From Hericium rajendrae (lineage: Eukaryota; Basidiomycota; Agaricomycetes; Russulales; Hericiaceae): DNA of 64,000 nt. The stretch spans positions 1,674,001-1,738,000 of the forward strand of contig CM065890.1 of the NCBI GenBank assembly GCA_033439255.1, given 5' to 3'. The position numbers and the translations under genes were made by a program. Under the pieces are notes generated by a model that saw only the letters and a list, made by a program, of their open reading frames with translations, did no database searches and had not been told where the DNA came from. Shown one piece after another: positions 22,899-62,184 of this stretch. How positions within the stretch are numbered: position 1 is the stretch's first letter; the number at the start of each line of letters is the position of its first letter.

Positions 22899-24575
22899 CT
22901 ACCTGCTACGGTCTTTCGTCTTTAGAACTGGCTTCACATCAGAGGGAGGCACAGTGAGAGAAATCGGATAGCCGTCCCAAGTCCTTAAGCTCTCCAGATT
23001 CCGCAGACGTTCCGGTGAGACTCTCCAACCGTTAACCACTAGCTCCTCCACATCGGCAGCCTTGCCTGATCTCCTCCTCGCAATCAGACAATCAGCGATC
23101 GCATACACAAGCCCCTTTTCTATCGTTCTCGAACCACGTGGTTCGCCCACCGTCAAAAGGCTGAGAGACGGGAAGGCAGGACCACCTCCATCTCTCCGCG
23201 GGCATATGGCCGGAAGCATGTGCTTCACGCATTTATTGTCCACTTTTAGCGTGCGGATACGGAGAAGATGAGGAGCGAGGAGCTGAACATTGGCTCGTAC
23301 GAATTCCGCATTGTCTTGGACGGATTCAACAACCAACGTCTCGACGCTGTTCAGCGGGATATTGGCGCACAAGTCGCGCAACGTCTCCTGCCACGGGAAG
23401 AAATCTCTCCGCATCACCGTCACATTGATGCACGTCGACGGGTGTATGTGGAAGGATGCATCCACATAGGTGTTTATGCAGACCCTCTGTGTGTGAGAGA
23501 TGGATAAGGCCACGCAGCAGGCCCCGTGCACTGTACACCGATCTGAGCAGCTTTCCAAAACGAAAATCCTCGAGCGTCTCCGGATGGCATGCAAGCGTCA
23601 TTTGTGTCTCAGATGTGGTCTGGAATCGACTCATGAACTCGTTCCGCTCGCGAGCTGGTGCATTGAGGTGGAAACGGGCGAGGCTCGTGCGCGGCGACAG
23701 GCAACGAGGGTTGCGCAGTAACCGGGGATCTGGCGCGCTTGCACGCAAAGCGCCTACGACACGCAGATAGCGCAGGGCCTCCAGAGGCGCCAGAAGAATC
23801 ACCATTTGCGACGTGGTGAACCTCTCCGGGAGGTTATCCAGTATTAATTCCGTGAGTGTCGTAGGGAGAACCGACTGGGGTGAGAAGCCGACCATCCGTA
23901 GATCGAGGCGCCTGAGGACATTCGCCCCTTCAAGGCAACCAGGAGGAGGAGACAGGGCACGCCGTCTGTCGTTACGTTCTGAGTAGAGAGCTTTAGCTGC
24001 TTCAAGAACGGCATCGGCTTCGCCAGGTGTCCCAAGACTACACCCCGTAGCCCCGATGGGTACATGACCAAATCGATCTCGCGCGCACGGTCGGCATGAG
24101 ACAAGGCTTGGACGATAGGCAGTGTTTCACTGATCGATTCGCGTGGGATCCGCGAGTGGTAGGAAATCAATATCGGTGATGGCATGCTGCGTTGCAGCAT
24201 GAAGGCAGTTATGTTTGAGTTGAACAACGAAACTGCCTCCCAGAGGTGTGAGGTACAGATAGCAATGTTATGCCAAACTTGACAAACGTAGCTAAAGGTA
24301 AATCTTTGTCCGAAGTCGTAGCATTTGATGCGTTTCCTAGCATATGGCCTATCCCGAAAGGTGATGACGATCTCGTAGAATATTGCCACCATCAGCTCCG
24401 TTGGGAACCACGCATTGATCAGGGCATATGCGTTGCGTCGTGCACGCAACTCGCGATGGCATTCTGTCGATGACCCAGGCGGGATCTGCTCCATTTCCGT
24501 ATCGATGATCTGCTGGGCGGCAGTGCATTCGTCAACGCTTAGCCGGGTGGAATTTGACAGTGTCAATGAATCCAT
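22899..24575 (-). pseudogene. F-box-like gene, family 1 copy 2, at least two frameshifts
   Basis: Starts MDSLTLSNSTRLSVDECTAAQ, then RARRNAYALINAWFPTELMVAIFYE and SYVCQVWHNIAICTSHLWE. Leucine-rich segments follow (LTELILDNLPERFTTSQM; IPLNSVETLVVE; CLIARRRSGKAADVEELVV). It aligns throughout with the copy at 14.2 kb. One base is missing in the CTCCTCCTCCT run near 23950 and a second frame change lies near 23503. Each is followed by clean homology in another frame, so the damage is recent compared with the divergence from the other copies. Its 3' end is only about 260 bases from the right terminal inverted repeat. Confidence 0.8.
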
Positions 24576-24967
24576 GGTAGCCTTCAAACCATCTATAATG
24601 AGTCGACTATTGGACCTTCTGGATCAATGAGAGAGAGACGAACATACAGGATTGACAGCTGGAGTACTCTGAGACAAGACCTATACTTTGAAGTATCTGA
24701 AACAGAAGGAGCTACACGTATCGTGAGTATCATATCGAACGTCATATGCGGGTTAGTCACCTACCCTCAGTCCGAGCACATACAAGTCTGAAGGAAAGCA
24801 GCTGGCGAGCGTTCATGGAAGGTCACTATACCTGCGGATTCCGGCTTCCGGGCCGATGACCGTGGATGACCACAGGAGACGCCCTGTCATTGCTTCGCAA
24901 ACAATGACATCTTCAGTCATTATCCAAATGTAACGCCGAAACGAACTCATCGTAAAATAACAACCTT
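24576..24967. other. Short intergenic region
   Basis: About 390 bases between the start of F-box copy 2 and the stop of the CNH-domain gene. No gene is seen. Confidence 0.5.
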
Positions 24968-26750
24968 TTATCGCGATCTGGTGTCATAACCCTCAACAGG
25001 CGGCGGAACGTCCACCTCCTCAGGTGGTCCGTCGTCCTCGCTCTCTTCAGCCTCTGCCTGAACAGTGCCTCCAGCCTTTGCACCAAGGACCTCTTCAGCA
25101 TCTTCAACAATAGGAGCTCCAGCCACTGCCTCAACAGCACCCTCAGCATCTGCCTCAACAGGATCCTCAGCATCTGCACCGCCAGCACATCCATCCTCTA
25201 CCTCGACAGCATCCGATTGAAGAGCGCCCTCATTCGCTGCCTCAACAGCCTCCTCACCCTCCGCCCCAAACGTCTCAAAACTAGGCAGCTCCACTGTCTC
25301 TCTAGTATCCGGCTTCGCCGTCCGCCCCAACAGGCGCACCTTCTTCAGACGCAGCTTCTCCGACTGCGCGCGCGACGGCACAAGGAACCCGCCCGCGCTC
25401 ACCGCGAGCCGCCGCCGCTCAGCCGCGAGGAGCACCGCGGGGTCCGTGGTCTCGTCGACGGGCAGCGGCGGCGCCGCGACGACCTGCGCGAGCTGCTGCG
25501 TGTCGACGTTGTGCACCTCGATCGTCTGGTTCGGCAGCAGCGTCGTGACGTACGGCCAGTCCAGACCTGCCCTCACACGCATCAGCACCACTTCACTTCC
25601 GCGAAAGGGAAAGGGGGACGCACAGACGGAAAGCGGGTGCGCGGGCCACTCGAGCGTGCCGCGCACGGGGTCCGCGTCGCCCGTGACGAACAGCCCCATC
25701 GTGCCCACGCCGTTGTACGAGAGGATGAGGAACTCGTTCGGCGCGATGATCACGATGTGCGGGCGCACGGGCGGCCCGCCGGGCACCTGCGTGATCGGCA
25801 TCACGGGCGTCTTGACCGCCGCGTCGAGGTTCACGACCGCGTAGTACTCGCGGTCCGCGACGCACACGCGCCGCCCGCTGCGCTTTGCGAGGAAGCCGCC
25901 GCCGGGGAGGGGCACTTCCTGTGAGCGTGTGAGCGGCGTGAGGGAGGGAGAGGGGGAAGGAATACCTTATGGAAGAATGGGCGGTCGAGGAAGCTGTAGA
26001 GCGTGATGCTGCTGCGCTTCACGATGCAGAACTCGATCGGCTCGACGGGCGTGTCGGGCAGTGGCGGTGGCGGGCGAAGGACGTGCTCGTTATCAACCGC
26101 GAGCGCCTGCACGTTGCGGATCGGCTTGAACGGGAGCGGGTCCAGCGACGGTAGGCTGAAGAAATATACTTGGTGGTCTGCTCATCGGTCTCACGTAAGA
26201 CTTTGGATGAGGGAATGGAGGGGGAGTATGTACCGCAGAGGACGAAAACGACGGAGATGCTCTGCACGAGGACGATCTCGTCGACCGACTTCCCGCCCGG
26301 GAAGCGCCGCGCGGAGAGGAGCGCGTAGGATTCTGGCTGTACACGTATTTCAGTGTGTTGCAACCGATCAGACATTCGCCAGAGCATACGCACCTCGTCG
26401 GGGCCATTGGCCTGCAGCGCAAAGCGCAGAAGCCGCCCGTCGGTGCAGCCGACGTATATCTCAGAACCTGGGGAATCGTCAGCTAGACGGTCCACCAAAC
26501 GCGTTGGTCACGACTTAGAGGTGTCGCGATGGTCGGAGGACGCACGTACCTAAGGCCTGTGCACATCGCACCTCCACGCTGCTCGGCACACCGGGCGGTC
26601 TATTCAAATCCTCGTCTATCTCTCCGACCATGAATACACACGTCAGAGTGCGTCAATTGGGACAAACGCACCGTCTTCGATGACGCTCGCGATCAGCGGC
26701 TGGACTTGGTACGGCGGCACGTCCAGCGGGTTCGTCGGCACGGAGGTCAT
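24968..26750 (-). CDS. N-terminal (CNH) half of a Vps39/Vps3-type sorting protein
   Basis: The family (Vam6/Vps39, Vps3, TGFBRAP1) gives HOPS/CORVET tethering subunits at endosome and vacuole membranes. The ATG at 26750 opens MTSVPTNPLDVPPYQVQPLI. CNH/beta-propeller-like blocks follow: SEIYVGCTDGRLLRFAL, VDEIVLVQSISVVFVLCG, LPFKPIRNVQALAVD, VKRSSITLYSF, CVADREYYAVVN, FLILSYNGVGTMGLFVTGD and PYVTTLLPNQTIEVHN, ending GGFLVPSRAQSEKLRLKKVRLLGR. An intact member would now continue into alpha-helical Vps39 domains. Instead the last 110 residues are a repetitive acidic tail (EADAEGAVEAVAG, EESEDDGPPEEVDVPPP) before the stop. About six short introns are present. The missing half lies 5' of the perilipin gene (29.7-32.7 kb). 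Confidence 0.8.
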
Positions 26751-27381
26751 CGTGACCGTCAGGTTATGGCCTGCTCTAGCTTTCAAAGACAATTGCAATG
26801 ATGAGACAAGACATGCCAGTGTGCCGAAGGGTGCTCACCCAGAGACCTAAGTACAGTAGTGAGTGGCGATCCTGGCAAACCGGTCCCCACAATTAGCGCT
26901 CGTCTGTGCAGAGCGTGCGAAAGTCATGGCGCTTGCGATTTGTTTCCGATGAGCGCTTAGTGGGCATATGCGAACTCGTCTTCGCAACATACGATCATAC
27001 AGAACAAGTCGACATCCATTCAACATTACTACGCCCACGGACACAGAAAACCGAGTTTATGCAGGACTAAAGTGGAGTACACGGCCGATATCGTTTTGTG
27101 ACCGTAGAAACATGCTAGACCGGAAGACGAACGACAATTACACATGGTGGTGACGTAAAATGAACAGAGAAAGAGCTGAGGGTGACAGACATGAAATGTA
27201 TGCGGCTGTAATGTATGAATGCAGCAGTCGAAAGACTCTATGAAGAAAAATCATACAGAGTTGGGGAAGGATCTAACAGAGAAAAGAACGTTACAGTTGA
27301 CATGAGGGAGGGACCATGAATCGATCGTCTATACCGGAACTCCAGACTACAGAAATCAGAAGAAAAGACATGTCGGCGGGC
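26751..27381. other. Intergenic region
   Basis: 631 bases between two - strand genes: promoter side of the CNH half and 3' flank of the perilipin gene. No gene is seen. Confidence 0.5.
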
Positions 27382-28572
27382 TCAGTGCGCACTGCCGTTT
27401 CCGTTGACGACCGCTGCATTTTCTTTTTCAGCTTCCTTCTTGCCCGCGGCGGTGACGGCCTTGATCGTCTCCTGCACGCGCGCGCTTGCAGCTTCGAGCA
27501 CAGGCTTGACACGCTCCTGGACAGTCGTTCCCAGCTTGCTAACCTTGTCATTAAGAGGAAGATCGGATTTAAGGACTTCAGTGAGATCGGTGATGGTACT
27601 GGAAATACCCTCTTGCACGGGCTTGAAGGAGGACTGGAGGTGGGCGGGGAGAGCAGCAGTGGAGGACTGTTTCACCACTGATCAGTCCGGTGACGGCACA
27701 AGGATGAGGACACGGAAACCTACCTGAATCTTTTGCAGTTCTTGCACCATGACGTCGCTCAGGGAGTGCGCCCTCGCCTGCGCGGCAACAATAGATGAGG
27801 ACGCGAGTTCAGCGATGTGGTGCGCAGTCTCGGTCGCACGTTGCCTAACCGCAGCACACGTCAATATGGGAGTGGAGTCAAAACGTAATCGGGTCTTACA
27901 CAAGGGCGTTCTGACTTTGCAGTTGGTTGAGCTGGTCGTTCGAAAAGACATACAGCGTGTCCTTCAGGTCCTTGGAGAGCGCCAAGGCGCGCTGGTACTG
28001 GAACTTCGCGTCGCCGTTGACACTGGGAGTAGAGGGCGCCGAGCCCTCCTCGTTCTTATGCAGTCGGGCCACAGTGACCTCGAAATAATCCACGAGGGGA
28101 GCGAATCGCTGAGAGAAAAGTCAGTTAAATTCATTACATAAACGGGGCATGTTGTACACACCTGGTCAATGCCCTGAACCATGGTATATGCGGGCGTGCG
28201 GACACGGTCGTCAATCGTCTTGTTGGCGACATCCTTTGCATGGTCACTGCGTGACTTGAGATCATGTATAATCTCGTCGGTGGGGGTCTTGAACGGGTAA
28301 GGGTAACGAGACTCGACGGCGTCGACGGCCATGTTCGCTAAACCGTCAGCGCGCTCAATGAGAGGGGCGAGGCGGGTAGCGATAGGCTGGGTATAGCCGA
28401 GGGCGGTAGCAGACAGGGCCTGGCCAGTGGTGTAGGCCGAGCGGGTGTATGCGTTGGAAGAGAGGGAGTTGTGCACGGCGGCGAGAGAGTCATTGATGAG
28501 GGGAATGGAGGCCACACGGTTGAGGACGGTGAGCTCGGGGGCGGCGGGGGTGGTCTGCGTCTCGGTGGACAT
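27382..28572 (-). CDS. Perilipin-like lipid-droplet protein
   Basis: Resembles fungal perilipin homologues (such as Metarhizium MPL1), which coat lipid droplets and protect stored triglyceride. The start reads MSTETQTTPAAPELTVLNRV, then ASIPLINDSLAAVH, YTTGQALSATALG, RLAPLIERADGLANMAVDAV and ESRYPYPFKTPTDEI; the last matches the family's conserved 'YP-x-x-F/K' block after the first helices. Later parts are amphipathic helix-rich (SSSIVAAQARAHSLSDVMVQ; FKPVQEGISSTITDLTEVL), ending with a Lys/Glu-rich tail. Four exons are separated by short introns near 28110-28163, 27846-27900 and 27679-27725. The gene lies between the two halves of the Vps39/Vps3-type gene, on the same strand. The start is the first ATG of the conserved N-terminus. 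Confidence 0.82.
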
Positions 28573-29722
28573 GGCGGGCAGCGAGAAAGGGAGTGGATGT
28601 GGTGGAGAGAGATAAGAAATGGCGACTAATTGCGGGCTGGACGCGTTTGGTTTTGAGCGTCGGGGCGGAATCGCATGTGATTTCCTCTTTGGTTCGTGCT
28701 CACGTGTTCTGATGCTCATATCGAGATTTCCCCGCCTCGAGGCTTCGCGTCCCTTACTTCATTTCTCGTGCCGTAATTTGATTTTATGCTCCATCTTCTA
28801 GCAGCGTCTAGCCACATCAAGCACGACGAGGATGTGCTCATCGCCAAGACGCGCGCACAGACACTGCATAGGGGCCTGTCGCGATGTCGAAGCCAAGCCC
28901 ATTCAAACAGCCGTTATGGTCCTCCATTCAGCCTGGGCGCAGTACTCCACCCCCTGGACCCGATCTGTTTCCGCTAAGTACTTAGTACTGCGTCGAGAGA
29001 CACGTTCGAGATAAGATCCCCGCCGAGAGCGCGGACCCGGGCTGTGTCCCGCGCCGACCTTAACCTCTTACTGAGGTTCGAACGTGGCGTCAGCAGACGG
29101 CGGAATGAGCTCAAGAGGAGACGAGTCAGCTCGAGTGAGCTAGCGTTGAGCCTGAGCGGTGCCATTGCAAGCTAGATGCTTCACACAGCCTCAACTGCGA
29201 ATTAGCTTTGCACCCCGAGGGTGGTAGGCACAGCGCGGCGACGTCGTCGAAGGCAGAACCAGCAGCCTCATTCCGTGGATCTGCCTTCAGAAGTTCTGTC
29301 AGCTGGCCGTATCCTTGAGACCGAGAAGCTATGATAGACTTTGACGTGGGAGCGAATCCCAGGCGCGCGATGAGATAATGAGATCCACGCGAAGAAACGG
29401 CCTGGAACGTCATAGGCGCAGGTGTCCACCGCATGAGACCAGCGACGGATGCCAGCCGCCGAAGCTCAGCTGCAGCGAGGTGCGTGGAGGCTTACCCAGA
29501 TGGCCTGCAACACAGTGCAACGGAGCGCTGAGATGCCTTTAAATGGGTCCTTCTCGCAGTCGGACACGGAGATCCTGAGACGCATGCGCCATCGCCAGAC
29601 CTATTCCACGGCGAGCAGGCACCGGTGAAACCAATGTGAAATCCTCAAAGAGATCCGCAACGTCGATTGGAAGATAAGCAAGCAAGCAACAGAGAATCCA
29701 AAGCATGGGCTCAACACGAGCA
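28573..29722. other. Intergenic region with probable rearrangement breakpoint
   Basis: 1.15 kb between the perilipin start and the stop of the C-terminal Vps39 half. No gene is recognised; the open frames here (such as 29126-29434 -) show no domain. Confidence 0.5.
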
Positions 29723-32679
29723 TCACGACAACCCGTCCTCCTCATCGTCCCGTGGATCCGTCACGCTCGACCCATACGACATCGCGAAGCCCCGCCCGGG
29801 TGTATCCACGCCCTCCTTCTCCTCCGCGCTCGGTATTGCGATCTCCGTCACGCCCGGCCCTACCTGGTCCCGCAGCGCCGCCTTCTCATCCACCTCTGAC
29901 CCCTCCGAATCCGGCAACGCCTCCTCCAGCACCGCACCATACTCGCGCAGTACCGTATGTGCGCCGTCCGATATCTGTGAACGCATGAGTGAGTGCACGG
30001 AGCAGGAGAGGGGCGACGCACGGCGAGATTCTGTCCCATGCTGATGCCCTTGACGATGAGGCCCTCGTGCTTCGCGTGCAACGCCGCAGCGAACGCGCGA
30101 GGAACGCGGACAGCGTCGGGAGCGGCCAGTCCGGCGGAACGAGCTCGAGCACCTAAGTCAAGGTACGGGTCAGCACCCATTTTCCAGCAGAAACCGCGCA
30201 ATAGATAACAGGCCGATCGTACGGTGCACGGCTGCGCCTGTGTGGGGAGATGGGCGCAAGCTGGGTACTACAGTATATGGTGCCAAAAATACGACAAACA
30301 ATACGCCCCACAGCGCAGCCGGATGCGGGGGCAGAGGCTAGACGTTGCGGAGCGGCTGCGCACGACTGAAGATGGCGGAAGACGGAAGATACACAACACC
30401 GCGGAAGCATCTCAGATCCTCCCCGATCACGATCGCGCCATCTGGCGACGTGCCCAGCACCGATGACCACGCAAAACCAGCGATAGGCTACGCACCTCGA
30501 CCACGTCAAAGTTCGCCGCCTGCGAGTCCAGCAGGTTCGACGTTGCGCTGGCCGCAGCCGCAGGCGGCAGCGCCGACGGTGCGGGCACGTCCGCACCCAT
30601 GTATATCTCGAGCAGCATCTTCAACAGGCGGCGCGTCTCACGCGCATCCGGCGCCGGCGCGCCCTTGCTCGCCCACGCCGCGAGCCCGTGCTTATCCGCG
30701 AGCAGTTGCACGGCGCGCGGCGGGAGGACCGCGCCGCGCGTCGTGCAGTATGCCTCCGCGGACGCGTGATCGCGCAGCGAGAGCGCGAGCATCGAGAGTG
30801 CCGCGCGGTCGTTGCCGAGCTATTATCCGACAGATCAGCGGGAGCAAGAGGGGGAGAGCGGGGCGGACGGACTTTGCCCTCGACGATCGCGACCTCCGGC
30901 GTAAGGATGCGCGCGTAGGGGTCGAGTCGTGCGCGGACGGACGCGGCGTCGTATAGAGGAGAGCTTTGCAAGAACAGCGCAGCTTGCAGGCGTGCACGTT
31001 TTGCTGGTGAGTCGGGGGTTGTCGATGCGAAGTATGAGAGGAAGGGCTGGGGGGAAATGCTCGAGGTATAGGACGCGGCTAGATGGAGGTCAGCGGGCGT
31101 GGCACATGTTATGCGTAGACGAACAGACCCTTTGCACGCCATAGTTTTGAGATGGGCTCGTCCTGCAGATATGAGAGTATTAGGTCGATGTATGCGAGCG
31201 CAAGCTCTGTGTGTAATGATCGGTCCTGGATTGCAGGACGAAGGCATCAGTTTCAAAGACACTTGGACCCAAGTCAGAATACGCACTGTACTCCGTTTTT
31301 GCAAAACCAAGTGTTCGAGGAACTGCATACCCGCTTCTGGGTTGGCCTCGCGGATCTGCTGCAGCATGGCTGCATCGTCTTCAACTCTCTGTCCACGCTT
31401 TGTCGATCCTTGCGATGTCAAGAGCTACACGTCAGGTCAGTACACGCACTGAGCGAAGGCGGGGAAGCACAAACCTTCAACGCACGCTCGGTGTCTTTCT
31501 TCGTGAGCCAGATACCCCATTGCAAGTGAGCTGCCGATCGCGCCGTTCGGTGAGCAGCGCGAACATGTCGCCGAGTGGGTCCGGGATGTCGGTGTCCGTC
31601 CACACGCCCTCGGCGAGTCTGCGATACAGCGCGTAAGCACACGATGACCCATGACTAGCAAACCACCGCGCGCACTTTGACCATACATCAAGCAGCTTCG
31701 CGTCGTCGCCACGCCGCTGGTAGAGTTTGCACAGTGCGTTGTACTGCCCAGTCGTCTCGAAAACGGGTTCAAGCTCCTCGAGGACGAGGTCGGGCGACTC
31801 CTCGAGCAGCGCATACAGGTCCGTCGTCTTCTCCGCGCGCGCGAACAGCTTCGCCAGCACGGTATCCACGATCTACCTCGTACACGAGCATGAGCATCCC
31901 TCCCTCGCACCAGCAACGCTACTCACCATGTGGACCGCATGCGGCGCGCCGTCCCCGCGAACGCGCCGCCACTTGCGCAGGAACACGTCGAGCATGTCGA
32001 CTGCGGCGAGGTTGAGGATGCGGCGCAGCTCGGCGGTCGGTGGCGCCGAGCGCGTGTCGGGCGCGAGGTGCGGCGAGTAGTTCCTGACTAGGTTCGCCAC
32101 AACTGGAAATCAGCCCGGGACGGCGCGTGAGGAACGGCGCAAAGCACGGAAGGCGAAGAAAGGTGGAGGGGGAAGGGGCGGACAAGGGTGGAGGACGTAC
32201 TGATGTCGTCGATGGAGTCGTACGGCGGCATGTACTCCGCGACGCCGGCGAAGATGTCGAGCTCATCGTCGGGCGCGAGCAGCGCGCCGCGGAGATCGGG
32301 AAAGTAGGAGATGAGCATGCGCGGGTCGAGGTTACCCTCGAAGAGGTTGTATCCGGCATCCTCGAAGCGCGTCTCGGAGAGGAGCTGAAAGCCAATACGC
32401 TGGTAGACATACTGCAACTCTTCGGCCTGAATATGGAGGAAATGTGTCAGAAGATGGAGAAGCGTGGGGCGAGGCACGCACCTCGTCCGGGTCTACTGTA
32501 AGTTTGCTCTGGAGTTTCTTGCGCTGCTGATCAGCGAGCTCAACCACATCGTCTATTCTGTGGCTCTCTAGATATGATTCCGCTTGAGAGATGGTGGTTG
32601 CGGGTAGAAGTGAGTTTACTGAGTTGGAACTGAGGATGAGGACATTTGAATGTGGAAACGTGGACCGGCGGATGGCCAT
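29723..32679 (-). CDS. C-terminal half of a Vps39/Vps3-type sorting protein
   Basis: Starts MAIRRSTFPHSNVLILSSN, the first in-frame ATG; the frame is open without an ATG back to a stop at 32854-32856. It continues with SVNSLLPATTISQAESYLES and ELADQQRKKL, the point where an intact Vps39-type protein passes from propeller to helical repeats. Then EELQYVYQRIGFQLLSETRF, FEGNLDPRMLISYFPDLRG, LFARAEKTTDLYALLEESPD, FETTGQYNALCKLYQRRGDD (Vps39 domain 1) and LELVPPDWPLPTLSAFLARS with GISMGQNLA (Vps39 domain 2), and an acidic tail ending EEDGLS. Several 50-60 base introns are present. The CNH domain expected at the N-terminus is absent here and is found at 24968-26750. Both halves could come from one ancestral gene whose order is now reversed, or be remnants of two copies. 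Confidence 0.78.
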
Positions 32680-33031
32680 GCTGGAGACAAAACGACCAAT
32701 ACTTGATAATCCTACCTGCTCTTCGGTGTAGATTTGAACGAAGAGCAACGCGATGGTTAATGCAGACGGGGGATGGTGCTTGTTCTGAGATTCGCGTCCT
32801 CCAGCCTCCCGCCCACTCGCCAGGCTCAGCCGGCCCGGGGCAGCCGCTTCTCCTCAGCAATCGACTCGCGATCGCTAGGGGTGTCATGGTCAACGTTCAA
32901 CACGTTTGACCAGAACACAACAGTCAAGTATCATATATCACACCTCAGCGTCTTTCACAGGTTATCTTTGTACGTTGCCTTCTCCATGCTACTGTTCCGT
33001 GGTTCCATTGCAGACTCAATTTCAGTTCACT
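32680..33031. other. Divergent intergenic region
   Basis: 352 bases between the C-terminal Vps39 half (-) and F-box copy 3 (+). The - strand frame of the Vps39 half stays open upstream to 32853 without an ATG, so part of this may be former coding sequence. Confidence 0.45.
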
Positions 33032-34671
33032 ATGGACCCACAGATACTGTCCCATTCCCGACTGAGCCTTCACGAATGCTTTACTGTCCAGCAGGACATC
33101 GATGCAGAAATCGAAAGGATCCCACCCGAATCATCTTCCGAATCGGTTCGCATATTACATGCACGACGCAATGCGTACGCTATGATCAACGTGTGGCTCC
33201 CACCAGAGCTCATGGCGGCAATATTCTACGAGCTCGTCGTCGACTTACGGTGGATGTTTCACTTCAAAAAGCACTTTCAGACTTACGGCTTTGGCCAACA
33301 ATATATTGCCATTAGCCACGTTTGTCGAGTCTGGCGCACGATCGCTATCAGTACCCCCCGCCTATGGGCAGAGATTTCGATGGTCAACGCAGACGTAACT
33401 GCCGTCATGCTGCACCGCAGCAAGGCATCACCAATATCCATTTTCTGCCACTCACAACTAGACCAGCCCATTAGCACAGTCCCACTCGCCCTGGCGCATG
33501 CTGACCGTGCATTTAAAATCGATTTGTCCCTGCTTTCAGAGCGGATGCAGGACCTAATCTCCAAATATCTGACGAAGCCGATGCCGTTCTTAAAGCGATT
33601 GGGGCTCTTCGCCGAATTCCTATCGACGGCCCGTCCTGCATGTTTCCTTCTTCCGGGCTGTTTGGAAGGGGCGAATGACCTCGGCCACCTTGATCTCTTG
33701 CGAGTCGGCCTCTCTCCTGGCTCCGTTCTTCCTGCGACACTCACGGTGTTGGCCCTCATGTACCCCTCAGAGAGGCTCACTGTGTCGGAGATGATACGTC
33801 TTCTGGAGCCTCTGGAGAATCTATGTGATCTGTGCATCATAGACGCCCTTCTTTCAGATGCTCCCGATTCCACCAAACCATCCACCCTTCGTCGTCTCTC
33901 GCCCCGCGCGCATCTCGTCCGACTCCACCTCAGTGCACCGGTCCGCGAGCGGGACGATTTCATGAGCCGATTCCCGATCATGCCCAAGACGCCGATGTCG
34001 CTTTCATGTGATGTGGAGACGCTCGACGATCTTCATTTGGAGTAGGTGCTCAAGCCGGTGCACGGTGCGCGGCACCGACTGCGCGCTCTGTCCCTCTCTT
34101 TCTTATTAGGCAGGGCCTGCATAAAGGGATATTCCAGTGCATCCTTCCCAATGATGCACTCGCATAAATGCTTCAGCGTGTGGGTGGGACTGCACAGCGT
34201 CTTCCCGTGGCACGAGACGCTCTGCGACCTGTGCACCACTATGCCGCTGGATAGCGTTGAGACGCTGTTTGTCGAATCCACGCATGACTTAGGAGAAAGC
34301 ATTGCGCCGCTCCTCGGAGCCCATCTTCGCGGTGTCCGAACGCTGAGGCTGATGAACAAGGCCGTGAAGTATGTGCTTCGGGATATGCACCCACAAGCAG
34401 AGGGGATCAGCCCCGCCTTCCCGCATCTCAAGGCGCTGGCCGCGTTTGCTACAAGAGATACGACGCCAGTGCGAGATACGACTCCAGTGCGATAGATTCG
34501 CACCTGTTGGGCCCCGTCGCCGATTGCCTGATTACCAGGAAAGGATCAGGCATGGCTGCTGTTGTAGATGAGCTGGAGATTAACGGCGAGGTAATCCCAT
34601 CGAAATATCTGGAGAATCTGGAGGGCCTCAAGAGCTGGAAGCACCCTTCTAGTGTCCATGGTACGGTCTAA
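33032..34671 (+). pseudogene. F-box-like gene, family 1 copy 3, stop plus frameshift
   Basis: Starts MDPQILSHSRLSLHECFTVQ, with RRNAYAMINVWLPPELMAAIFYEL and SHVCRVWRTIAISTPRLWAE as the F-box-like core, then the same leucine-rich order as copy 1 (LTVLALMYPSERLTVSEM; MPLDSVETLFVES; YVLRDMHPQAEG). A TAG at 34043-34045 interrupts the frame, after which the same frame continues with full homology. Near 34450-34490 a 17-base tandem duplication (GAGATACGAC...CCAGTGC twice) shifts the frame; the conserved end (CLITRKGSG, VVDELEI) continues to TAA at 34669-34671 in another frame. Copy 1 has GSHEIEKQLLSSIADCLVA at this place, without the duplication. Confidence 0.8.
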
Positions 34672-35798
34672 TACGCAAGGCCATTAGCTCGAGCGGCGTA
34701 CAGCTGCCGTGCTGCAGTGAGTAGAGCTGGCAATCCATTTCGCAGTTGTAGTCGAACGTCATGTCTTGTCAAAGCGGCCTTCCTCCCTTCATTTCTGTTC
34801 CGGGCTGCACGATGCCATATCGACTTAGCTATACAGAACAAATTGTTGTCTCATACACAATACCTAGCTTTCCGCCATTGGATATCGAAAACAGGTCACC
34901 GGGTGCGAAAATTCGCATTCTGTACACTTCGGAGCCTTGAGGTCGTCGACCCGGCGGCCTTTGCCGGCAGCTCTCAATCTCATCTCGCCGCATCCTCCTG
35001 GAAGGAAGGAAGGAAGGAAGGAAGTTTATTCCGCAGCGGTCCCAATGAGGAACATAGCGGTGGCGCGTACTACGTAGTCAGGCACAGGACTACGCTACGC
35101 ACACTCAAATCATGTAACTACTCCGATCACTACCCAGGATGATGCATCGAGGCCGAGAGAGGCCAAGACAGACAGTATGTACAGTGCAGAACTAAGCAGA
35201 CGAAGAAAACAGACCTGGGAAAAAACCCACACTGGGAAAACCTAGTCGGCAAAACCGCAGTTGTGGGAAAACCAGGCAAAAATATCATCACTGGGCAATG
35301 TCTTGTAGAGACACGAAATGAGCGCGAACGGAAATCAGCATTGCCGACAAGAGGGAGGATGGAGTCCATGTAAAGGCGAAGCTCCTCGAGCAATTTGCCG
35401 TGCAGTGCAAAATCGAAGTCGGAGAGTAAAGATACCACGGCGAGATCCTTCTCGATGTGGACGAACTCGCAAGCGACAGCAACAGCGAGCAGATCCCAGC
35501 AGTGTTTGACACCACGCAGGCCTGGAGAGCGAAGCAGTCCGAAGTACTGCAACATCACACATTCAATGGTAGTAAGTCGTCCAACCCAATGATCGGCTAC
35601 ATAGAGTTTTCAGAGTTGATTGACCTGGCAGATCTACATCAGGCGTAAGGAGTCGACAAGCCGTAGATGCTGAAGGACGTGCAGCCTGCCTCGAACCTAC
35701 AGCCGTGATCGATCAGGATCGATCCCATCTGTTGTACGTTCGTTTCTCCAGCCTCGAAGGTCCAATTGTCGACTTATTATGGATTGTCAAAGACCTCC
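34672..35798. other. Intergenic region with microsatellites
   Basis: 1.1 kb with no recognised gene. It contains a GGAA microsatellite at 35000-35024 and, at about 35212-35280, irregular repeats of TGGGAAAA(A)CC. A 142-codon - strand frame (35130-35558) has no recognised domain. Confidence 0.5.
35000..35024 (+). repeat. (GGAA)n microsatellite
   Basis: About six uninterrupted GGAA units. Confidence 0.95.
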
Positions 35799-55450: not shown

Positions 55451-58400
55451 ATGGATAGTCGTAAAAGACAACTGTCTCCGGGGCAGGAGAATTCCCTCAA
55501 ACGACGAAAGCGGGTGACAGTGGAGGAAGTCCCTGACGAGGATGTGATTGGAAGTTTCCCTGTTCGCACTACGCTAGGTTGGTCTGTTTTCTTTTCCATT
55601 CCAGTTGTATTGTGGGTTCATTTAGGTTGATATAGGTTCTAGAAGTGAAGACCAAGAAGTGAATGCCAACGACAGTGTTGGTAATGCGTGGATGCGGACA
55701 GGCGGTGAGGATGTAATGTCTTTTTTTCCTGCTGGTTTGTATTGACTTAGTATATAGGCATTTTGAGCAGTTCGATGGATTTGCCTACGGCAAGGGAATG
55801 CGATAATGGTGAGTTGATATTGAAGTTTTGTTGGCCGGAGATTTCATATTTCAGTAGGAGCAGAGGAGGGATGTATGGATGTGGATACTGCCGAGCTTGC
55901 GACACGCCTGCCTATGTGTCCGTCGTCGATGGCTGTTGAAGGTAAGTTTGTAACGAGTTTCTTTCTTGGTGTGATGATGACATACGTTTTGTAAAGGTGC
56001 CACGACAAGCGATCGAGATGGTCGTAGTTTTGCGCCGGTGGTTGGTGGTATGTGTTATTATCGCTGTGTGTTGTTGATGCACAACTGATCTTTTGTGGAT
56101 GATTCTCCCTTGTCTTTTTGTTGTGGCGTTCATTTATTGGCTATTTACTGTGGACGTCTGTGATGGTCATGCGGTCTTGTGGTCATTTTGGACGTATGGT
56201 CTATTATTCGAATGGGTCTCATGTCTTCGGTCGTAAATGTAGTGGGCAATGTGTTTGCCCTTGTAAGAGATGAATTGGTGGAATTGATGGGATTTTCGGC
56301 GAGTGATAGGATTGTCCGGTCATCATTGTTATTCCAGTGGTATTCTTTTAAAGGTAGTTATATTGAAGGTGAAAATCTGCATCCTGACTCTATTCTCGTG
56401 ATGTCAAATAGTTTGCATCTTCTTTTGAGCAGTATATGTAATGTGACTCGCCCTCAGCTCGTGAATATAGCTGTTGCTCATGGCGTGATATTGCCCGCAA
56501 CGTGGACAAAGCGAGCTATAGTCTCGTTCCTTACGACTGACCATACATGCACGGCTGGATGCTTACATTCGCGGTTTGTGTTTTCACCTCGTGCTTATGA
56601 GTCTCGGAGAGTTGTTTCATATAAGTCAAAGAAACGACGGTGTCTTGATACAGAAACTGGAAGGAATATGGATATTGGATATGAGATTGATGATGGACTG
56701 TTTCCGATGATATGTGAGCAAAAGACTAAGCATGAAATAATCCGAGAATATCAAGAGTATTTTGCAGACGAAAAGTGGAAAATAAAGGCATGTGCAGTTT
56801 GCGGGCAAGGAAAACCGGCTAGAGAAATAAAGCGTCAAAAAATTGATGGGTTTCCGCTGAGGTTGTTACGGAACGACCATATCCCGTCGGTGGTCTGGCC
56901 TGTAAGTTATGATTTCAGAATGTATGACAGAGCATTTTTGTATGCGCCCGGGATGGAGTATACAAATACATTGGGAGATCTTGATGTATGTAAAAGTTGT
57001 TGGCAGTACCTGGAGCGGAAGGAACAACCGCCGGACTCGATTGCGAATTTTCAATATTATGCTCACGAACGGTTGCCGGATGATGTTCGGAATGCTTTTG
57101 AGAAAGCTACTGTGCATGAACTACAGTTAGTATCGGCGTGTAGAGCGACGCAAATTTCTTACGTGTATTCGCGGGAACGAGCTGGAAATGCAGTCCGGCA
57201 GAGGTTCTCTCGAGGAAACGTGGCAATTATTCCACAGGATGTTGCGGCGGTACAGCGATTATTACCGCCTTCGCCAGAGGAGTTACAGCATTGTATATGT
57301 GTTTTGTTTGTTGGGTCTAATAGTCGCCCTACGTTAGATGATATTCGGAAGATAGGACCCGTATTAGTGTCAAAAAATCGAGTGCGGAAAATGCTTAATT
57401 TCTTGATTGAAAATAATTCTTTTTATGGTTCTGAAGGCATTACTTTCAGTGAGAACAATTTAGAAAATTTAATGGCAGACGTTGTTGATTCAGACACCTA
57501 CTTAAGTAAAGCGGTTGAAATATGTTACGTAGAGCGTGAGGAAGTTGCTGTGGAGGCTGCGTCGTCGGGTTATGTGGATCGTCTTTTAGATGATATGAAT
57601 ATTCCTGACGGTGAAAGTCTGCTTGACATTGTGGGGTTCCCTGGTTCTACTGAAGGTGTAGTGGGGCATGAATCTATGAAACTGAAGGCTCTTCAGTGGT
57701 GCTCGGAGAATAAACCGTGGATGAAGGTTCGAGGCGGAACACGTTTGTTTCCGGATAGAGATCCACGGATGCTCACCTTTGTATTCCCACATCTGGACCC
57801 TTTTGGTTTGGGTAGTTTTAACCATCCTTTACGTGTTGGCAAACAACGGATTTCGTTTGAGAGACAACTGCGTAACATGCTCATGCGCCATGAATCAATT
57901 TTTGCTGCTGATCCTAATTTTCCGTATGTTGGATGGAACATTGTGCAAAAGCATGAAGCGTCCAGTCATATTAATTTTCGGGTGTCAAATAGTCAGTATG
58001 CAGAATTGTGTCGAGATCTGAGCGATCAGAGTAGTATAATAGAACAGCTGAGCGAGAAATACCAACGGGATCCGTTGTCGCGACCGAGTAACCGCGAAGA
58101 AAAACGTGCCCTCGCCCTGTTGGAAAAGATGAAAGCTGTTTCAAAAGAATTGCGAGGTTCTAATGGCCATAAGCTTAAGATGAGAAATGAAATTAGGGCA
58201 ATGTTGAAGACACACGGATGCCCAGCGCTGTTTATTACTTTGAATCCGGCAGATGTTCATAATAAACTTGTTCATTTATTAGCAGGTGGGGACGCGGAAG
58301 AGTTTAGGAGCATGAGTGCGTACGAGAGAGCGAAGGAGGTTTCCATGAATCCTAAAGCTGCTGCGCTTTTCTTTGACTCAATGATTAAAGCATTTATAAA

Positions 58401-61400
58401 AATAATCTTACGTCATGGTGACAAGCGGCCGGGCTTGTTTGGGTACTCTAAAGCATATTATGGTACTGTTGAGGCGCAAGGGCGAGGTACATTGCATTGT
58501 CATATGCTAATTTGGATTCGAGGGAGTTTATCTCCGCAAAAGCTGAGGGATCGCATGGCGAATGATGCCGCGTTTAAAGCGTCTATGTTTGCCTGGGTGG
58601 AATCTATTATTAAATGTGAATTACCAGGGATGACTGAAACTATACCTGCTTCGTTGCGAGCTTATATACGAAAGCCTGCGAGGGCGGAGACGGGCGATGT
58701 TCGTACGACGGATGCTCCTGTGTTAGCGAAAGACATGTCAGAGGAGGATATTGCCCTTTTCGAGCATAATTTTCGAGAGTTTGTTACGGCTATGGCGGTG
58801 GAATGTAACTGGCATGAGCATAGGGATACGTGTTGGAAGCATTTGAAACCTGGGGAGGCACGAGATGATGCGCATTGTCGAATGCGAGTTCGTGGAGAAA
58901 CGAGAACTATGACTGAACTAGACCCAGAAACATTTAGTATATTGTTGCGGCGATTACACCCATGGATCAATAATTATAATGACCTTATTTTGTTCCTCAT
59001 GAAGTGTAATATGGATATAAAGTTGATAGGATCTGGGGAAGCGGCGAAGGCCCTTGTTTATTATGTAACAGATTATATTACGAAGGCGTCCTTGCCGACT
59101 CACCTAGCACTTGCAGCCTTGTGTTATGCCATCCGATCTAATAATGCCAAATTTGCGAATTCGAGCGACATCTCGCAGACTGCGGTCAATCGTAGTCTTA
59201 TAACGAAGGTTGTCAATGCTATGATGGGCAAATTGGAGATATCTCACCAACAGGTGATGAGCTATTTGATAGGTGGTGGCGGTCATTATACGAGCGACGT
59301 GTTTAGATCTTTGTATTTTGGAGAACTCGATCGCTTTATGAGAGCTGCGGAGAATCAGGAATCTGTGGAGAATAAGGAACGCGAGGAACATCGAGAAGAA
59401 ACCTACCATTATGAAGAGTCTGACGAATCAGCATCTCTTGTTGACCCAGTAGCATTGTTAGACAATCAAGAAGAACTGGACGGGATTATGAATGAAGAGA
59501 TAGAACAGGTCGTGAATTCGAGTTTAATGCCTGGTGGAGATTGTCAGCAAACATCGCGTGTGGATGACGGATGTCTTACAGTGAAGAGGACAAGAGAAGG
59601 GCTTACAGGATCGAGCCTTTTGCTGGATTATCGGTACCGACCGAGTGATGAGCATTATAACTCCTTATCCGTATGGGATTATGTTTCCGAGACTGAAAAG
59701 AAGACTATCCAATCTGAAAATCGGCGAAATGAGCAGTTCAAAAGACATGGAAATAAAAGTAGCAACCAGGAGCATGCTAATCGGTTTCATTTTTCGGACG
59801 AGCGACATCCTCAGTTTCGGACCCATGTAGTGTTTCCGAGAAGGAGTCTAGTGACTCCAGTCTATTTAGGACCTGCTATCCCTCGGGGTGATCGAAGTGA
59901 AGAGGAACGTGAAAGTTGGTGTCGGGTGATGATGATATTATTGAAACCTTGGAGGACAATTGAAGAATTGAAAACGTCGAGAGAAAATTGGAGAACGGCG
60001 TTTGAGAATACTTGTTTTTCGATGCGTGTGAAGGAGATTATGGAGAATATAATGGCAGAAAATGAGTGTAAAGATGCTCGTTCGGACTTTGAACAAGCGC
60101 GAAGGCGAGGTGAAGTCGACGGACTTCTAGAAGGTGTAGATACATTAAATGTTTCTTCAAATTTAGATGAAATAGGAGAAGAGATGATACTTGGAGAGGA
60201 TATTGATAATTTTTTGATTTATCCGCGATCAGAAGAAGTTGAACAGGATGCCGAGACTCGTCTTGCTGAAACTGTTGATGGGATGGCACGAGTCAAACTC
60301 CAGCAATCTATAGACACGTTACAGCGAGCGGGTCTGTTTTCATCAAAGAGAACTGGGATTTACTATCCATCAACGGCTACAGATAGATATGTTATATCTA
60401 GTAGTCAAGTTAATCTGCAACGAAAAATTATGAGAGAGCATAAATGTAATAGGAGACCTAAGACTCGTGTCGCTACCTATGGCGATGATTGTGGGCCGTC
60501 CAATAAAGCTAACGCAAATATCGGACCTGTCACGTCGATTGGACAAATAAATCCAATTGAAAATGATTCAGTGACGGTTGAGGGTGCCGGTGCCGGTAGT
60601 AGGATTGTTGAACTTGATCCTAAGAAAATAGTGGACTTAGTTCTAGAAGATATGACCGTTAATGGTAACGACGAACAAGAAATGGCTGTACGTTTGGTCG
60701 CAAATCATTTTATAAATAATGTTCAGGAACCGTTATTAATGTACATTGCGGGTGTTGGCGGTACTGGAAAGAGTCACGTGATTAAAACGATAGTAGAGAT
60801 GTTTAGAAGAATGGACGCGGCGTCGCAATTACTGCTTAGCGCTCCTACTGGAATTGCTGCTGTTCTTATCCAGGGATATACAATTCACGCGCTGACTTTC
60901 CTACCTAAAGGCAAGAATAGAGGGAGGTCAGAAGATCTCATGAACGTATGGAGAGACGTGAGATACTTGATAATAGATGAAGTATCTATGGTTTCGGCAT
61001 TATTCCTGAGTCAACTTTCTAACAGAATAGCGGAGGCTAAGAGTTGGCAGGCGGGATCGTCGGATCTTCCGTTTGGTGGCGTAAATGTGATTTTTACAGG
61101 AGATTTCGGACAATTGAGGCCCGTGCAGTCTAAATGCTTATTCTCTCATGAATTAGTTTCAGCTATCGATCGGAATCAAGCACAGACCTTCCATGGACAA
61201 TCCGCGTTATGTGGAGCCTTTTTGTGGAGACAAGTGAATACGGTCGTTGAATTGAAGAAAAATTGCCGTCAAGCAGATGATAAGGAATTCGCTGATTTAG
61301 TTTCAAGGATACGGGAAGGGAAAGGAACAAATGACAGGGACGTTACTCCGGGGTCTGTATCTGACTATGAGATGTTAACGAGAAGATTGATGAATGTTTT

Positions 61401-62184
61401 GCAGGACCGTGATTCAGGAAGCTTAGACAAGTTTCACGACGCACCTGTCATTGTTGCGGACAAAAGACTTCGAGACGCTATCAATTTTAAACGAGCGTAT
61501 ACACACGCAAGAGAATGTGGACGATCTGTTATAGTCTGTAATTCCATCGACCGTTCAAGGAGAAAAGAGCTTACTGGATCATTGGCTTCGAAAGTTCGTT
61601 CTCTTCGTTCCACGCTGACAAGAGACGCGCTAGGACACCTCCCATTGTTCGTAGGAATGCCAGTGATGTTGTCAGAGAATGTAGATATTTCACATGGAGT
61701 CGTTAATGGGGCCGAAGGGGTCATAGAGCAGGTAGTAGAAGGTAAGCAAACAGATGGATCCGTGGTGGCCGAGTGTGCGTACGTAAGAGTTCCGGGGTCC
61801 GGCCATAAGTTCGAAGGCTTGGATCAGGATGTAGTCCCGATCTTCCCTGTGGATACACACTTTAAATACCAACGTGCTGAAGGGCTTCGATTCAATATTA
61901 TTCGACGTCAGTTGCCTTTGCTTCCTGCATATGCATTTACTGACTATAAGAGCCAAGGTCGCTCATTGCAGAAAGCAATCGTCGATCTAGCAGGATGTCG
62001 CTCATTACAGAGTTTGTATGTTATGCTTTCAAGAGTAAAGACATTAGATGGACTAGCTATATTGAGGTGGTTTCCTCCGGCGAAAATCTCACAGCCTTTG
62101 TCTCACGAATTCAGAAGTGAGTTTCAACGTCTGCATAAGCTAGCTATTGAAACTCATAGGAAGTTTCATGAGCGAGATGGATGA
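55451..62184 (+). mobile_element. Helitron, autonomous-looking core (Rep-helicase)
   Basis: A rolling-circle DNA transposon, identified by its Rep-helicase gene. The coordinates give the gene only. The left end must lie between 55269 and 55450, because the aldehyde dehydrogenase stops at 55268. The right end is somewhere after 62184 and was not fixed: a TTAGGC/GCCTAA hairpin near 62457-62474 and a GGGCTGGCCC palindrome near 62517 are candidates, but no clear hairpin followed by CTRR was settled on. The element's bases are visibly AT-richer than the neighbouring genes. Confidence 0.85.
55451..62184 (+). CDS. Helitron Rep-helicase (HUH endonuclease plus Pif1-like helicase)
   Basis: Nicks and unwinds DNA for rolling-circle transposition. 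Six exons: 55451-55577, 55636-55680, 55758-55808, 55855-55941, 55997-56047, 56243-62184. All five introns are phase 1, and the sum is an exact 2,100 codons. The first exons give a basic start (MDSRKRQLSPGQENSLKRRK) and short acidic/Ser-rich pieces. The giant last exon holds the Helitron_like_N region (ALFITLNPADVHNKL), the HUH motif GTLHCHMLIW (about residue 870), the paired-tyrosine motif LVYYVTDYITK (about 1058), Walker A GVGGTGKSH (about 1623), Walker B LIIDEVSM (about 1696), TGDFGQLRPVQ (about 1738) and the Pif1-type end FTDYKSQGRSLQ with YVMLSRVKTLDGL. No stop or frameshift was seen, so it may be functional. An alternative is to read the 56179 ATG as the start; the spliced model is favoured because all splice phases agree. 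Confidence 0.88.

Follow-up and report, generated by a model that had tools for sequence, protein, structure and literature searches.

We analyzed a stretch of 64,000 nucleotides from the genome of the basidiomycete Hericium rajendrae (hereafter the window; C13:1674001-1738000, where C13 is one of the 19 contigs of a 46.8-Mb assembly), in which a gene for Vps3, a subunit of the endosomal tethering complex CORVET that assists the fusion of early endosomes, appears to be divided where the CNH beta-propeller gives way to the helical solenoid. The two parts are encoded by separate genes whose order is swapped around an unrelated gene for perilipin, a fat-droplet protein: on the minus strand, read 5' to 3', the helical half comes first, followed by perilipin and then by the CNH half. 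As assembled, the halves are indeed split and in swapped order, and a diverged copy on the same contig independently supports one of the two junctions. At a confidence somewhat short of even, we favor an origin in which one Vps3 gene was opened by circular permutation and kept as two genes, the products of which would probably meet in CORVET.

The N-terminal, CNH beta-propeller half (24968..26750, minus strand) was modeled with seven exons and introns of 47-82 nt, and its frame is intact over 475 amino acids. It closes with an acidic tail (24968..25290, minus strand, start approximate), in which 24 bases are tandemly repeated at 25126-25177; we take this tail to be a putative former linker. 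The C-terminal, helical half (29723..32679, minus strand) was modeled with 10 exons and nine GT-AG introns, eight of them 47-98 nt long and one 343 nt long. The perilipin gene lies between the halves (27400..28572, minus strand), with its start codon placed by eye and its 3' end approximate. In both gene models of the halves, the exon ends were picked to suit GT-AG borders and the expected frame, and the choice of frames and the exact complementarity of the halves are in part our assumption, guided by what is typical of the family. The initial annotation had placed both halves on the same strand in swapped order around perilipin, and this layout is borne out by the gene models and by Pfam. Its account of two half-genes fits the CNH half, which is intact and carries the acidic tail, but it omitted two breaks in the helical half, one in exon 4 (31526..31531, minus strand) and one in exon 9 (30081..30083, minus strand), each of them a frame change with no space for an intron. 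It also omitted the F-box-like genes that flank the block on both sides. With regard to intron length, the 343-nt helical intron (30153-30495, minus strand) stands apart from the remaining 14 introns across the two modeled genes, which are 47-98 nt long.

The CNH half matches the Pfam family CNH (PF00780, E=1.5e-14), and its closest solved structure is yeast Vps3 (8qx8_E, E=2.5e-10), with residues 35-305 aligned to residues 139-399; the PDB search listed two sequences for this half, with Vps3 at the top and Vps39 not among them. When the helical half was read through its breaks with X, a match to Vps39_1 was obtained at residues 202-269 (PF10366, E=9.1e-6, 26.4 bits vs. a cut-off of 22), and its first unbroken piece alone scored 21.7 bits against PF10366, just below the cut-off. 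The helical half also gave a clathrin-repeat match (PF00637, E=4.1e-4) that falls under the cut-off for PF00637, and no Vps39_2 was listed in it by Pfam at E up to 1. The CNH and helical parts, which share one polypeptide in the Vps3/Vps39 family, here sit on separate genes. The name Vps3 was given to the helical half because no other partner for the CNH half turned up, and we infer that it belongs to this protein. For perilipin, the open frame matches PF03036 with E=1.1e-6 and 28.4 bits, below the curated cut-off of 33, and the locus is the sole match among those listed in a genome-wide search for the family, where its score is also below 33 bits.

Independent support for the arrangement comes from the right-hand junction (32680..33032), an upstream region common to the helical half on the minus strand and an F-box-like gene on the plus strand. 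In a whole-genome search and in blastn comparisons, the segment 32491-34856 (plus strand), which comprises helical exon 1, the junction, and the F-box-like gene, was found to recur, inverted, at C13:1663304-1659738, which is 11 kb to the left of the window. Identity between the two is 73% over 389 columns for 32491-32850 and 78% for the F-box part (32938-34856). With gaps excluded, the copy differs from its source at 15 of 159 flank sites, at 16 of 161 exon sites, and at 312 of 1635 sites in the F-box-like part, and the 159 aligned sites of the copied flank are interrupted by nine indels. In the copy, the sides of the junction are located at C13:1661529-1661649 and 1662955-1663304, about 1.3 kb apart. 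Judging from this comparison, the helical half very probably adjoined the F-box-like gene, without an upstream CNH part, before the copy arose. The split itself thus very probably predates this inverted copy. Within the copy (C13:1661529-1663304), the two junction sides are separated by part of a DDE_3-type transposase.

Both ends of the block abut F-box-like genes that are related to each other, with weak Pfam scores that lie below the cut-off. The left-hand junction (24575..24967) runs from the end of the CNH half to the start of one of these genes, which is on the minus strand. The F-box-like genes form part of a cluster, in that seven other places matched the query gene over the 104 kb searched. 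Members within the window are located at 14.2-15.3k (+), 23.6-24.6k (-), 33.0-34.0k (+), and 35.8-36.8k (+), and those outside it at C13:1652852-1653874, 1654329-1654642, 1658323-1659320, and 1660533-1661553 (-).

In protein searches of the whole genome, no second copy of either half was listed, save a 47-residue fragment of helical exon 1 located 11 kb to the left of the window. The queries comprised helical residues 1-314, the 295 residues after these (609 of 712 in all), and 313 of the 475 CNH residues; these searches score the best candidates only, and their coverage ended 103 residues short of the helical C terminus and, in the CNH half, began after residue 49 and stopped short of the acidic tail. 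The initial annotation had suggested looking for an intact homolog elsewhere in the genome, and this short fragment is all that appeared among the matches listed. Family searches, which go exon by exon, listed three further CNH places on contigs C4 and C5, two of these loci with a RhoGEF or PH domain and the third without a Pfam family, as well as a separate Vps39_1 (PF10366) match on contig C5, where four open frames gave no Pfam family, so that this locus was dropped as a control for domain order. The Vps39_1 search missed the helical half and the CNH search missed the CNH half, and such searches may miss further genes with small exons. No relative was found when part of the helical half was compared with prokaryote and viral contigs and part of the CNH half with viral contigs.

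The halves also resemble each other in guanine-cytosine (GC) content at third codon positions, which is 0.779 in the helical half and 0.764 in the CNH half, compared with 0.584 in Vps8, 0.684 in glucan synthase, and 0.612 in the right-hand F-box-like gene, all read in frame; the left-hand F-box-like gene, sampled out of frame, was excluded from this comparison. Such matching high values are as expected if the halves came from one gene. This similarity, together with the lack of another listed copy, backs the proposal of the initial annotation that one Vps3/Vps39-type gene underwent a local rearrangement. In addition, Vps8, the other subunit specific to CORVET, is present as a 915-aa open frame, and since it has been kept, the complex is probably in use.

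If the gene was opened by circular permutation, the helical-perilipin-CNH block would be a permuted form of an ordinary CNH-helical-perilipin stretch. A DNA circle carrying Vps3 and perilipin would have been opened inside Vps3 and inserted into the F-box-like cluster, where the helical half may have taken its transcription from the region common with the F-box-like gene, and the CNH half would have retained its own start and come to end in the acidic linker. Both halves are probably translated; the helical half could be anchored in CORVET via its C-terminal end, keeping this anchor and the predicted Rab site, with the propeller joining it non-covalently. The last propeller strand may belong to the first part of the helical gene, where it would offer a docking edge. 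We infer the circle, the promoter, the expression, and the meeting in trans. That the outcome is a natural two-piece Vps3, rebuilt in trans as a working CORVET subunit after the circle opened inside the gene, is a more doubtful proposition, for which we would claim rather limited confidence, and it is a possibility that the freed propeller gained a separate role.

Several observations at the locus touch on how the block may have arisen. A pyrimidine-rich, acceptor-like stretch at 32680-32715 (minus strand), recognized by eye and also found in the copy, has a CAG end one base ahead of the helical start codon, and it could be a relic of the intron through which the gene opened. For the intergenic stretch between the helical half and perilipin, no second match was found, and therefore no repeat there explains the order. 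The window also contains, at 56164-62181 (plus strand), a single open frame of 2006 residues that carries the domains Helitron_like_N and PIF1 helicase and resembles a Helitron Rep/helicase gene. It lies 23.5 kb from the helical half; a role of this element in moving the block was weighed and rejected, as nothing links the two.

There is a hint that the helical half may have been kept by selection after the split, in that its frames are stop-free and its indels few. No in-frame stop is present in its three unbroken pieces, in which about three stops would be expected at 5% neutral change since the copy (P=0.05 for zero; P=0.18 at 2.5% and P=0.49 at 1%), where the figure of 5% is half of the flank divergence and the divergence of the F-box-like part implies that the true value may be higher. 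Likewise, the nine indels of the 159 copied flank sites compare with two frame breaks over the 2139 coding bases of the helical half. A codon-position test for selection on exon 1 was set aside, as the substitutions (3/54, 5/55, and 8/52) were too few.

A number of results weigh against an origin of both halves from one gene by circular permutation, with the helical half still at work. When the helical half was compared with solved structures, as a whole and as two pieces, matches were at chance level only, with no Vps3 among them. Helical exon 1 by itself has a third-position GC of 0.561. The exon-1 alignment, where the helical frame is open, contains seven more indels, so that indels in general may have gathered mainly in the copy. 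Words shared at five pairs of ends were none of them convincingly above chance, and no circle junction was identified: within about 130 bases of the ends, the longest shared word is 7 bases (shuffle P=0.54), and a word of 10 bases is shared once the flanks are widened to about 400 bases (P=0.11). The 7-base word, shared by the two outer ends, might have marked a target-site duplication, but this reading was rejected (P=0.54). Breakpoint similarity is thus little or none, as with circle insertion, a weak agreement since its absence is also expected otherwise.

The two frame breaks within 2139 helical coding bases belong with these results, and their frequency was compared with a background audit of the HSP70, glucan synthase, and chaperonin families, which covered 17 gene places, 8787 profile positions, and 44 adjacent match pairs in 26.4 kb. 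The audit used 61 of 64 match rows, omitting HSP70 at C1:4759529 and TCP1 at C1:1063134 as singles without a neighbor and TCP1 at C1:696088 as nested. In two of these 44 pairs, the frame shifts across a space too small to hold an intron. One is in the beta-1,3-glucan synthase gene (C7:1451947-1451953), where the sequence itself also shows the shift when compared with the protein motif expected for this enzyme; the other, in a chaperonin subunit gene (C7:1921327-1921331), was derived from match coordinates alone. Both of these shifts on contig C7 are probably residual assembly errors. At the audit rate, about 0.16 breaks would be expected in the helical half, and the probability of at least two is about 0.012, or 0.04 if the background is doubled; the audit is blind to breaks near exon ends and thus gives a minimum background, and the two helical breaks had been seen before the comparison was made. 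The helical breaks may be assembly errors or the onset of decay in the helical half.

The swapped order could also have arisen by tandem duplication of Vps3 together with perilipin, followed by complementary losses that left two halves functioning together, as the initial annotation had proposed; we consider this route possible, if unlikely. Duplication has been active at the locus, as seen from the F-box-like genes on both sides and the segmental copy of the right junction, and duplication followed by degeneration has been proposed to explain gene fissions in Drosophila (PMC4249797). However, at least two losses would have to follow one duplication, whereas insertion of a circle gives the order in one step, and a search beside the genes gave no convincing remnant: in four neighboring stretches, CNH, helical, and perilipin remnants did not clearly exceed 10 simple shuffles each. 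The matches reaching the shuffle maximum were one of perilipin to 33190-33471 (28.5 bits vs. 27.7), which lies inside F-box-like coding sequence, and one of CNH to 27037-27099 (18.9 vs. 18.9).

In another reading, the split gene is in decay and its helical half a recent pseudogene; CORVET would then run without Vps3 or with Vps39 substituting for it, or an intact allele would be present in the other nucleus. The contrast between two frame breaks in 2.1 kb and two in 26.4 kb of conserved genes speaks for such decay, but the breaks of similar kind in the glucan synthase and chaperonin genes make assembly error plausible. Moreover, the three unbroken pieces are stop-free, a GT-AG model can be drawn for all nine introns (although the model was fitted to that), the third-position GC agrees with that of the intact CNH half, and Vps8 is retained. 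We regard a dying gene as improbable, at about one level with duplication and loss. The initial annotation had also raised a misjoin, with the halves contiguous in the real genome, and this is very improbable: small errors do seem present in the assembly and the left-hand junction has no independent copy, but the same neighbors are paired twice in diverged form, which makes a misjoin at the right-hand junction unlikely, the contig is 2.05 Mb long, and similarity among the F-box-like repeats close to the joins is only ~64-78%.

If a Vps3 gene was indeed opened by circular permutation and kept as two genes whose products work together, H. rajendrae would possess a split tethering-complex subunit, and circular insertion, known as a breaker of genes, would be able to yield a lasting, functional gene fission. 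If both halves work, nature would have tested at this locus which portions of Vps3 need to be covalently joined. In yeast CORVET, as described in the part of the structural report cited here, the N-terminal propeller of Vps3 is flexible, binding of the Rab5 protein is predicted on the solenoid, and a C-terminal helix anchors Vps3 to Vps11, with the C-terminal extension of Vps39 absent from Vps3 (PMC11187117). Given this flexibility, a split at the propeller would reveal whether the propeller needs a tether at all.

In comparison with known systems, the two genes resemble Vps3/TGFBRAP1 in that the CNH half matches the yeast propeller region and the helical half has Vps39_1 with no listed Vps39_2, in keeping with the portion of the yeast report cited (PMC11187117). 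They differ in that yeast Vps3 is a single chain of 1011 residues (8qx8 chain E), whereas here there are two genes with their order swapped. No report of a split Vps3 was found in the literature on CORVET and gene fission, in that on Vps3, CORVET, and Basidiomycota, or at the top of broader listings. A possible functional parallel is Split-Doa10 in Kluyveromyces, where, according to the cited text, a nuclear yeast gene became two genes, split in a loop between parts, with products that associate into an active enzyme (PMC3464245). In that case, however, the protein is a membrane protein, and the K. lactis frames lie 508 bp apart in their original order, with no permutation in the account cited (PMC3464245). 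A possible structural parallel is found in wine yeasts, in region B of Zygosaccharomyces bailii, a five-gene segment for which the cited text describes eight forms in 28 strains (PMC3053389). Region B is a small, circularly permuted block with scant breakpoint similarity, as the block described here would be, and some of its forms have a gene broken in two, although a function of the two gene pieces is not claimed in the cited text (PMC3053389). The fission of ATRX in insects likewise spread the domains of an ancestral protein over two genes; duplication with partial degeneration is suggested for it, and a swapped order around a third gene is not mentioned in the portion of the account cited (PMC4249797). 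Overall, gene fission is not rare in fungi, as 1,680 fusion and fission events were counted across 12 proteomes in the survey, as far as cited here (PMC2557144). The Vps3 locus in H. rajendrae appears to be a fission of this sort in an unusual, permuted arrangement.

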